Source: Clostridiaceae bacterium
GTDB lineage: Bacteria > Bacillota > Clostridia > Saccharofermentanales > DTU023
Assembly: GCA_012799695.1 (NCBI GenBank)
Contig: JAAZKT010000086.1
Location: forward strand, 1-35,726
Direction of reading: 5' to 3'
Length of the DNA: 35,726 nt
Shown here: piece after piece, positions 20,607 to 24,445 of the stretch
Position numbering within the stretch: the first letter of the stretch is position 1
Layout of the letters: the number at the start of each line of letters is the position of its first letter
Notes under the pieces: model-generated
What the model saw: only the letters and a program-made list of their open reading frames with translations
Databases searched by the model: none
Told to the model about the DNA's origin: nothing
Program-made: the position numbers and the translations under genes

Positions 20607-20638
20607 CATGACGGTCGGTGTGTGGGTTGAGCGAACGC

Positions 20639-22924
20639 ATGAAACGTCTCTGTCAAGTGGTTCTCGCCAATGCCTCGCGTCATTTCGACCGTGAATGGAC
20701 TTATGTAGTCCCCGAGCCGCTCAGAGAGTCCATCGATATCGGCTCTGTCGTCTACGTGCCGTTCGGCACGCGCAAAACACCTTCGCGTGGCTTTGTTACG
20801 CGTTTTCTTCCCGAACTTCCCGATCAATACGACGAGGAGAAAATTCGCGACATTTCTGCCCTCCTATCGGATCGTCCCGCGGTGACGGAAGAGCAAGTGA
20901 AACTCGCTTTCGAGATGAAACGTCGCTACTACTGTACCGTCGGCGATGCGCTTGATACCATGGTGCCGCCGACCGTTCTTTCCGTCGGTGATCGTCGCGT
21001 CAAAGCGGCGCGTCTTGTCGATATGGATGAAGCGACCGAATTGCTCGATTCCGGTGATCTTCGCAGCTTAAAACAGGTTCGCGTGATTGAACTGCTTCTC
21101 GAGCACGAAGAGGCTTCGTGTATCGAGATTAGGCAGGCGGCCGACGTTTCGCAGGGCGTCCTCAATACGCTCGCTAAGAACGGGGTCATCGAATTCTTAC
21201 AGAGGACCGTCTCGCGCAAGTTGCCGGAGGAACTTGAAGAGGTCGAACCCGCCGACGCTTTCGAGGCGACGGAAGCGCAAAGAAAAGCCATCGAGGAGAT
21301 TGATGACGCCGCGTACGCCGCCACGCCCGGGGAACTCAATGAGTTTCTGCTTCATGGCGTGACGGGGAGCGGCAAGACGGAAGTCTACCTTCAGGTTGCC
21401 GATCACGTTCTCTCGCGTGGAAGGCAAGTACTCATTCTCGTACCGGAAATTGCGCTCACGCCGCAGATGACGCGACGCTTAGTCGCGCGTTTCGGCGAGC
21501 GCGTCGCCATACTCCACAGCCGTCTCACGCCCGCCGGTCGCTACGAAACGTGGCAGCGTATTTTGGCCCAGGAGATCCCCATTGTCGTCGGCGCTCGGTC
21601 TGCAGTTTTCGCTCCTTTAAAAAACATAGGTCTTATCGTCGTCGACGAGGAACAGGAATCGAGTTATAAAGCCGAGACGAAACCGCGCTATTACGCCGTC
21701 GACATTGCCAGAATACGGGCTATGATGAATGGTGCCGTACTAGTGCTCGGTTCCGCGACGCCGCAGGTGTCATCGTATTGGCGCGCGAAGAACGGATTCT
21801 CTACGCTTCTCAATCTTCCGGAGAGAATCAGCGACGCGGGGATGGCCGATGTCGAGGTGATCGATATGCGCGCCGAATATGCGCGCGGCAATTTGTCCAT
21901 CTTCAGCGAGCGCCTGACGAGGGAATTGTTTTATACAATCGAACGCGGCGAACAGGCGATGATTCTGCTTAATCGGCGAGGTTTTTCTCGAACGATCGTC
22001 TGTAGAAGCTGCGGTTGGCAGATGCGCTGTCCTTTTTGCGACATCGCGCTCACCTCGCATCGCAATCCGTACGGAGGAGAGGCCAAACTGCCCAATCGTA
22101 TGGTTTGTCATCTGTGTGAACGCCTCGCACGTGTGCCGAAGTATTGTCCGGAATGTTCAAGCGAGGAAATCATGGCGCTTGGAGCGGGAACACAGCAGGT
22201 GGAAGAGGAGATCAATAAGCAGCTTCCTCATGCGAAAATCCTCCGTATGGATCTCGACACGACGAGAGGACGATTCTCACATAAAGAAATATTAGATGCC
22301 TTTGAACGCCATGAGGCGGACGTTCTCGTCGGAACGCAGATGATCGCCAAAGGACACGACTTTCATAACGTGACGTTGTCTGCGATTCTGTCCGCCGATC
22401 AGCTTCTCGGAGCAGGCGAATTTCGCGCGTCGGAACAGGCGTTTCAGCTGATGACGCAAGTGGCTGGTCGTGCGGGACGCGGGTTGAAGAAAGGGCGTGT
22501 CATCATCCAGGCAGTCCAACCCGATCATTTTGTCGTAAAAGCGGCGGCTAAACAGGACTACGATGCTTTTTACCGCGAAGAGATTATCTTTCGAAATCGC
22601 ATGGCATATTTGCCCTTCGGCCACATCGGGATGGCACAGTTAAAGGGCTTTGACCGTTATGAGACGGAGGACGTCGCACGTGCATTTCAGCGTGAGGTCG
22701 CCGCGCTGATTGACCAATACGGAGGTACATTCTCGAACACGATATTGACGGATGCGTCGCCCGCTCCCGTTGAGCGTATTAGAAGTCGTTATCGCTATCG
22801 CGTGATGGTAAGGGACGAATCGGCGGAGAATCTTACGCGGTTGCTCTTTATGGCGGCGGACAGGCTGAAGCGACCGAAAGGCGTATCGTTGGCGATCGAT
22901 ATTGACCCTTGGACAACCTTATGA
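20639..22924 (+). CDS. priA: Primosomal protein N' (PriA replication-restart helicase)
   Basis: PriA recognises stalled forks and reloads the replicative helicase. The 761-residue protein has an N-terminal DNA-binding region, Walker A GVTGSGKTE (240-248), motif III GSATP (371-375), motifs V/VI with GTQMIAKGHDF (565-575) and QVAGRAGRG (607-615). Eight zinc cysteines sit at 455, 458, 464, 467, 490, 493, 503 and 506. Motif II reads DEEQ (336-339) where PriA normally has DEEH. ATG 20639 is the likely start; a GTG at 20618 and TTG at 20627 are upstream in frame. Placement directly after ispG joins two clusters usually apart. Confidence 0.95.
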   Translation: MKRLCQVVLANASRHFDREWTYVVPEPLRESIDIGSVVYVPFGTRKTPSRGFVTRFLPELPDQYDEEKIRDISALLSDRPAVTEEQVKLAFEMKRRYYCTVGDALDTMVPPTVLSVGDRRVKAARLVDMDEATELLDSGDLRSLKQVRVIELLLEHEEASCIEIRQAADVSQGVLNTLAKNGVIEFLQRTVSRKLPEELEEVEPADAFEATEAQRKAIEEIDDAAYAATPGELNEFLLHGVTGSGKTEVYLQVADHVLSRGRQVLILVPEIALTPQMTRRLVARFGERVAILHSRLTPAGRYETWQRILAQEIPIVVGARSAVFAPLKNIGLIVVDEEQESSYKAETKPRYYAVDIARIRAMMNGAVLVLGSATPQVSSYWRAKNGFSTLLNLPERISDAGMADVEVIDMRAEYARGNLSIFSERLTRELFYTIERGEQAMILLNRRGFSRTIVCRSCGWQMRCPFCDIALTSHRNPYGGEAKLPNRMVCHLCERLARVPKYCPECSSEEIMALGAGTQQVEEEINKQLPHAKILRMDLDTTRGRFSHKEILDAFERHEADVLVGTQMIAKGHDFHNVTLSAILSADQLLGAGEFRASEQAFQLMTQVAGRAGRGLKKGRVIIQAVQPDHFVVKAAAKQDYDAFYREEIIFRNRMAYLPFGHIGMAQLKGFDRYETEDVARAFQREVAALIDQYGGTFSNTILTDASPAPVERIRSRYRYRVMVRDESAENLTRLLFMAADRLKRPKGVSLAIDIDPWTTL

Positions 22925-23001: not shown

Positions 23002-23745
23002 ATGATTACCGAGACATGTTTAATCGGACATGGGATACCATCCGTGTCGAACGACGAACTCATTGAACGGTGGCCTTCGTCGGTCCCGCTCGGCATGATT
23101 CTAAACGGTAAAATCGAACTCTTAAGCATGGCGGAATTTGTTCCGTTTAGGGGTCAAGCATTGCCTCGTTACAACTATTTCATGCTTGACAACATTCCTG
23201 CGGGAACGTACGCTTTTCTGACGGCGTCCGGTGCGATGAAAGCGGCAGAATTGTCAGGTCTTCGCTGGGCCTTGAGCGGAGGTTTGGGCGGCATCCATCC
23301 GGAAATACGCAAGGATACCGTCTGCCCCGATCTCTATGCGCTCGGCAACAGTTCAGTCAAGCTGTTGGCGATCGCTTTTAAAGATATGGTGGATTATGAG
23401 GCGACCTTTGCTCAATTGCGAATCCAAGGGAGTTATTACCGGTTTCTCGATTCGTTCGTACCCGGATACATCTTCAAGCTCAAGTCAGATCTTTACGTCG
23501 ACATGAGTCCCGCAGGGGATTGTGAGGGCGGGCTCTATCTCAGGGAGATCCCCGCCGAGAAACGCATTCAAGACCTTGAACTTCTGTCTCGAGGTGTCGC
23601 TTTCGGCAACGAGGCGGTTCGAGCGGGCAAGCCTTTTCATCCCGAGGTAAACGGTTTTTTTGATCGCGAGACGGACGGCTATTCCTCACACATTCAGTTT
23701 GAAGCTCTCTTGTCGAACATAGAGTATTTACTGCGAAATCTATAA
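23002..23745 (+). CDS. Divergent pseudouridine-5'-phosphate glycosidase (PsuG/IndA)-like protein
   Basis: The 247-residue protein aligns by eye along its whole length with PsuG (about 310 residues), which splits pseudouridine 5'-phosphate to uracil and ribose 5-phosphate. Compared with E. coli PsuG as I recall it: ETCLIGHGIP (4-13) matches ESTIISHGMP with the acid Glu, GGLGGIH (93-99) matches GGIGGVH, and CPDL (108-111) precedes K127 by exactly the family's 17-residue spacing, placing K127 at the Schiff-base Lys. The substrate Lys (K93) is not retained, the family Asn near the C-terminus is His230, and the Mn-binding Asp is displaced or replaced. No PsuK kinase gene is adjacent. ATG 23002 with GGAG is preferred; ATG 22993 is possible. 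Homology is likely; retained activity is doubtful. Confidence 0.7.
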   Translation: MITETCLIGHGIPSVSNDELIERWPSSVPLGMILNGKIELLSMAEFVPFRGQALPRYNYFMLDNIPAGTYAFLTASGAMKAAELSGLRWALSGGLGGIHPEIRKDTVCPDLYALGNSSVKLLAIAFKDMVDYEATFAQLRIQGSYYRFLDSFVPGYIFKLKSDLYVDMSPAGDCEGGLYLREIPAEKRIQDLELLSRGVAFGNEAVRAGKPFHPEVNGFFDRETDGYSSHIQFEALLSNIEYLLRNL

Positions 23746-23845: not shown

Positions 23846-24445
23846 ATGGCCATACGAACGATACTGCTCGAAGGTGATCCGACGCTATTGAAGAAATCGC
23901 GACCCGTCAAACGGTTCGACGATCGTTTGGCGACGCTGGCGGAAGACATGATTGAAACGATGCGCGAATATAACGGCGTGGGCTTGGCAGCGCCCCAGGT
24001 CGGCGTTTTACGACGTCTTTTTGTTATGGACACTGGAGAAGACGGGGATGCGGTCGTCTTTGTCAACCCCGAGATTCTCGACGAGGATGGTGTGCAAACC
24101 GGAGTGGAGGGCTGTCTCTCGTTGCCTGATCTTGTCGGGGTCGTCTCTCGTCCTCTCACTGTCACGGTCCGCGCGCAGGATTTAACGGGTGAATATTTCG
24201 AGAAGACTTATTCGGAACTCTCAGCGCGTTGCGTCTGCCATGAGACGGATCATCTTGACGGCATTTTGTATCGTCGGCGTTCCGATATCATTCTCTGTAC
24301 GCTCGAAGAGTATGAAGAAGAGCGCAGGAAAGCGGAAAGCGAGAATCATGCGATGAATGACATATCGCCTGACGGAACCGAGTCGAAACCTGCCGCGAGC
24401 GGAGAAGTTCGTCATGGCGCGTTAGACGGCGAGGTTAATGCATGA
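23846..24445 (+). CDS. def: Peptide deformylase
   Basis: Def removes the formyl group from the N-terminal methionine of new proteins. The three motifs are present: GVGLAAPQVG (about residues 44-53), EGCLSLP with the metal Cys (about 88-94), and HETDHLDG with the HExxH metal site (about 132-139). About 35 residues beyond the catalytic core form a charged C-terminal tail without a known role. The ATG at 23846 fits the family start; the frame continues upstream to 23813 without a better site. A TATACT at 23801-23806 could be a promoter -10, with a poor -35. The TGA overlaps the fmt ATG. Confidence 0.96.
   Translation: MAIRTILLEGDPTLLKKSRPVKRFDDRLATLAEDMIETMREYNGVGLAAPQVGVLRRLFVMDTGEDGDAVVFVNPEILDEDGVQTGVEGCLSLPDLVGVVSRPLTVTVRAQDLTGEYFEKTYSELSARCVCHETDHLDGILYRRRSDIILCTLEEYEEERRKAESENHAMNDISPDGTESKPAASGEVRHGALDGEVNA

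Follow-up and report, generated by a model that had tools for sequence, protein, structure and literature searches.

A short gene between priA and def in the genome of a Clostridiaceae bacterium (GCA_012799695.1) encodes a protein resembling pseudouridine-5'-phosphate glycosidase (PsuG), which raises the question of whether this protein is a second PsuG, a relic of an operon enzyme or an enzyme that acts on a different substrate. The original prediction, made from the letters of the window (the whole 35,726-nucleotide stretch of DNA that was analysed), proposed the last of these. Few enzymes cleave carbon-carbon glycosidic bonds and, to our knowledge, PsuG is the only characterised catabolic member of its family.

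The window gene and its family

The gene is a real open reading frame whose coordinates, from its ATG to the end of its stop codon, were confirmed, and it does lie between the two housekeeping genes named in the prediction (Table 1), separated from priA by 77 bases and from def by 100. The sequence around it showed no convincing promoter or terminator, and no RNA family matched the window. Comparison with three relatives in the genus gave a dN/dS of about 0.11-0.23 (dN 0.08-0.21; dS 0.4-1.8, the high dS values being approximate), and the reading frame is intact in the window gene and its relatives in four species. The gene is under purifying selection.

Table 1 Features of the short PsuG-like gene and its neighbours (positions in the window)
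Feature	Position	Strand	Evidence
priA, upstream housekeeping neighbour, context only	20618..22924	+	ORF; synteny and homology in genus members
Short PsuG-like gene, 247 aa	23002..23745	+	PF04227 match; profile to solved PsuG and TM1464; dN/dS
Glu4 codon (= E. coli PsuG Glu31)	23011..23013	+	Alignment; Glu 22/25, Asp 3/25
Arg56 codon (= PsuG Lys93)	23167..23169	+	Arg 25/25 short; Lys 14/14 PsuG
Asp110 codon (= PsuG Asp149)	23329..23331	+	Alignment; 25/25
Lys127 codon (= PsuG Lys166, Schiff-base lysine)	23380..23382	+	Alignment; 25/25
HPxxN motif (His213, Pro214, Asn217), subfamily signature	23638..23652	+	H, P and N each 25/25
Gln232 codon (= PsuG Asn289, base-contacting)	23695..23697	+	Gln 25/25; Asn 14/14 PsuG
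def, downstream housekeeping neighbour, context only	23846..24445	+	ORF; synteny and homology in genus members

Searched alone, the window protein matched PF04227 (Indigoidine_A, the PsuG/IndA/AlnA family) significantly, with 28.6 bits against a curated cutoff of 25.2, over residues 70-143 only, and the same model was matched by all 25 subfamily members with E <= 0.01. The claim that the protein aligns with PsuG along its full length was borne out at the profile level: the 25-member profile matched TM1464 best among solved structures (3.3e-25, covering TM1464 28-291) and also matched E. coli PsuG (7e-23, covering PsuG 47-328), and a profile-profile comparison of the subfamily with PsuG by hhalign gave a probability of 99.7% over 257 columns. 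The window protein had no match among NCBIfam models and no close match in plasmid records, where one of its relatives gave weak matches only, to ordinary PsuG-like genes; viral contigs yielded no further family sequences. A literature search, limited in scope and hence no proof of absence, did not turn up any account of a short PsuG subfamily.

As predicted, the protein is shorter than PsuG, having 247 residues as against 329 for the PsuG encoded in the same genome, and the deficit corresponds to an N-terminal extension and several internal loops that have been lost. The protein has not arisen by truncation of PsuG; it belongs to a separate subfamily. Relatives in the genus share 85, 72 and 69% identity with the window protein, and members in three other genera of the family share 38-39%. 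Three further members were found in a class-wide sample of 391 genomes, and fourteen further genomes with members in a phylum-wide sample of 398; in the class search, short-family members scored at least 265 bits and ordinary PsuG proteins less than 70. The separate clade that the prediction had proposed looking for was found in a tree of 25 short and 15 PsuG proteins, which split the two groups with a support of 100/100 and placed the window protein outside the PsuG clade; the tree is midpoint-rooted only and has many long short-family branches, and its inner branching order is therefore uncertain. The short proteins form a distinct, sparse subfamily within the same phylum. The stem branch of the window clade is long (2.02), and presence of the gene is patchy within the genus. 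Among named relatives, the nearest are MAGs that carry the label Clostridiaceae bacterium; judging from these and from the oxygen-sensitive enzyme families in the operons, the hosts appear to be anaerobes. One short-family copy (G758, L119:7793-8197) has a reading frame broken by three stop codons, which suggests a pseudogene.

Active-site residues

Residues were mapped through PDB alignments and compared in 25 short-family and 14 PsuG sequences. The active-site geometry was taken from the alignment because the AlphaFold2 model of the window protein was poor (pLDDT 37.6), only three sequences having been used as input. Asp149 of PsuG, presumably a metal ligand, aligns with the invariant Asp110; the metal-ligand region had been described as shifted, and the loop preceding this residue is indeed shorter, but the presumed ligand itself is not lost. 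Likewise, the phosphate-site Lys and the C-terminal Asn, said to be lacking, are altered rather than missing, the positions being fixed as Arg56 and Gln232. Lys93, presumably a phosphate-site residue as the original prediction has it, is kept in PsuG, TM1464 and AlnA; as judged from the alignments, the change to Arg is peculiar to the short subfamily among solved relatives, so that even a 5-phosphate on the substrate is something that we infer.

His99 and His230, which had been named for inspection, vary even within the genus (H/R/Y and H/Q/R/L, respectively), and His99 was rejected as a metal ligand because the closest relatives have R or Y there. Asp128, which directly follows the Schiff-base lysine, is invariant in all 25 members and specific to the subfamily. 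The positions of the HPxxN motif are occupied by T/S, P and L in PsuG, which makes the invariant His213 and Asn217 new relative to that enzyme. The catalytic pair had been recognised correctly: Glu4 and Lys127 align with Glu31 and Lys166 of E. coli PsuG (YeiN), where both residues are catalytic, Lys166 is the Schiff-base lysine and Asn289, the counterpart of Gln232, contacts the base (uracil) (PMC7722734). Neither of the outcomes that would have counted against the prediction, a profile match below significance or loss of K127 and E4 among homologues, was observed, K127 being invariant and E4 replaced by Asp in three members only.

Genomic context

On another contig of the same genome (L120:7998-14372), a pseudouridine-type operon encodes a nucleoside-type ABC transporter, a PfkB kinase, the ordinary PsuG and a phosphorylase-like protein, the gene names being assigned by homology and ORF reading. 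The reported lack of a PsuK partner holds for the immediate neighbourhood of the window gene, but the genome has this PfkB-PsuG operon elsewhere, and the window protein is therefore not by default the pseudouridine enzyme of this organism.

Among 26 short loci, which are not independent (L113 and L154 are near-identical, four come from the window clade and several lie on truncated contigs), none has a PsuK-like kinase beside the gene, whereas one is close by in 21 of 21 ordinary PsuG loci; an RbsB-like binding protein occurs at 15 of the short loci versus one of the PsuG loci. The short loci also carry an RbsC-like permease (14/26), a different, non-PsuK PfkB kinase (9/26), a double-cubane reductase (7/26), a URO-D/MtaA-like protein (6/26), an ADP-ribosylglycohydrolase (4/26) and BMP-type permeases (3/26). 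Ribose/nucleoside-type ABC transporter operons are present at 18 of the 22 short loci outside the window clade. The RbsB-like proteins are closest to allose/ribose models and the PfkB neighbours are ribokinase-like. No close RbsB-like partner was found in the window clade, where the best match had 24% identity; in its sister genera, the partner was found at 54-56% identity or was the query itself.

A recurring operon (L113, L112, L114 and L154) combines an RbsABC-like transporter, the short PsuG, an MtaA-like URO-D protein, a double-cubane reductase and PfkB, with DUF436 also present at L113, L114 and L154. At L092, L111, L116 and L118, the short PsuG gene and that of a PfkB kinase have ADP-ribosylglycohydrolase genes, sometimes two, next to them, an arrangement reminiscent of E. 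coli yegTUV, genes that are not known to have a settled function.

Discussion

The separate clade, the fixed substitutions, the resident PsuG operon and the operon context support well the prediction that catalytic residues are kept while substrate residues are altered and the substrate is different. On these comparative grounds, we consider it reasonably probable that the window protein is a glycosidase/lyase of a distinct, short subfamily, working through a Schiff base on a sugar-phosphate conjugate that differs from pseudouridine phosphate.

All core catalytic residues are aligned, and the exchanges of Lys for Arg and Asn for Gln are conservative, as would be expected of a divergent isozyme, that is, a second pseudouridine-5'-phosphate glycosidase with the substrate of PsuG. 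We regard this as quite unlikely, given that a PsuG operon including a PfkB kinase is already present in the genome, that the exchanges are fixed in all 25 members, and that the PsuK-like kinase of the PsuG loci is absent beside the short ones. It is also unlikely that the same lysine serves a sugar-phosphate lyase or aldolase working without a nucleobase-like aglycone: the allose/ribose affinity of the RbsB-like proteins, the ribokinase-like kinases, the change at the uracil-contacting Asn289 and the likening of the Schiff-base chemistry to that of aldolases (PMC7722734) speak for it, but an amide is retained at the Asn289 position in every member, and the ADP-ribosylglycohydrolases and BMP-type permeases fit ribosides better. 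Finally, the patchy presence in the genus, the long stem branch and the absence of a transporter or kinase partner nearby could be read as signs that an operon enzyme was left stranded between priA and def as a relic, either decaying or without catalytic function; the low dN/dS, the frame intact in four species and the retention of E4, R56, D110, K127, H213, N217 and Q232 make this very improbable.

If the protein is, as we prefer, an enzyme for another conjugate, Lys127 would form an iminium adduct with C1 of the ring-opened sugar phosphate, Glu4 would be the putative acid/base, Asp110 would occupy the presumed metal site, and the bond cleaved may be that joining a ribose-5-phosphate-like sugar to a non-uracil aglycone. 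Retuning of the phosphate and aglycone sites may have come from the replacement of Lys93 by Arg and of Asn289 by Gln, from the loss of loops and from the HPxxN motif. Since PsuG accepts several analogues of uracil as well as pentose phosphates (PMC7722734), the short enzyme may have residual activity on pseudouridine phosphate. Most relatives appear to take up the substrate via an ABC transporter of the ribose or nucleoside type, and some would then phosphorylate it with the non-PsuK PfkB kinase. In the window lineage, the gene lies between priA and def and no such transporter was found; the substrate there is therefore probably an intracellular compound, for which modified nucleotides released in RNA turnover would be one candidate, or enters the cell through a different importer. 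More tentatively, the operons could represent an undescribed catabolic route in anaerobes of this phylum, in which a ribosylated compound would be imported by RbsABC- or BMP-type systems, phosphorylated by the non-PsuK PfkB kinase and split by the Schiff-base glycosidase, the aglycone being processed by the MtaA-like URO-D protein and the double-cubane reductase.

Of the known systems, PsuG/YeiN (PDB 4GIJ, 4GIM) shares full-length homology and the equivalents of Glu31, Asp149 and Lys166, but the short protein is about 60-80 residues smaller in its loops and N-terminus, carries Arg and Gln in place of Lys93 and Asn289 together with the new HPxxN motif, is without a PsuK partner and belongs to a clade of its own. 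TM1464 (PDB 1VKM), the best profile match among solved structures, retains the PsuG-type Lys and does not have the HPxxN signature. AlnA, the alnumycin C-glycosynthase (PDB 4EX8), belongs to the same family and indicates that a different aglycone can fit this fold; its C-terminal site also differs from that of PsuG, but, unlike the short protein, it is longer, keeps the Lys93 equivalent and is encoded in a biosynthetic cluster. A non-uracil aglycone is likewise used by the YeiN-like C-glycosynthase of the MinB type (PMC8724604), which we liken to the short family by description, not by sequence, and which stands in a biosynthetic NRPS context. Neither a biosynthetic partner phosphatase nor an NRPS was present among the recurring neighbours typed at the short loci, where the context is one of transporter or housekeeping genes. 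The conservation of this sister subfamily, with its rebuilt substrate site and the uptake operon that recurs around it, suggests that anaerobes use a new class of modified nucleosides or C-glycosides. The subfamily members may be new biocatalysts; annotation of these proteins as PsuG by default is possible and would mislead.

The suggested link to the surrounding translation genes did not stand up, as other genera carry the family in transporter operons and, in genus members without the gene, priA is directly followed by def. The gene has therefore been inserted into that cluster rather than built with it, and insertion in one sublineage is the simplest reading of its position. The priA-def location, whose conservation in the clade the prediction had suggested checking, is that of the window sublineage; in the other genera, the gene mostly lies in transporter operons. 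In one relative (G009, L086:1266-2270), about 1 kb of extra DNA separates priA from the short gene; its broken frames resemble, by eye only, the remains of an ATP-binding/HTH protein, and this extra DNA suggests that the priA-def junction accepts insertions.
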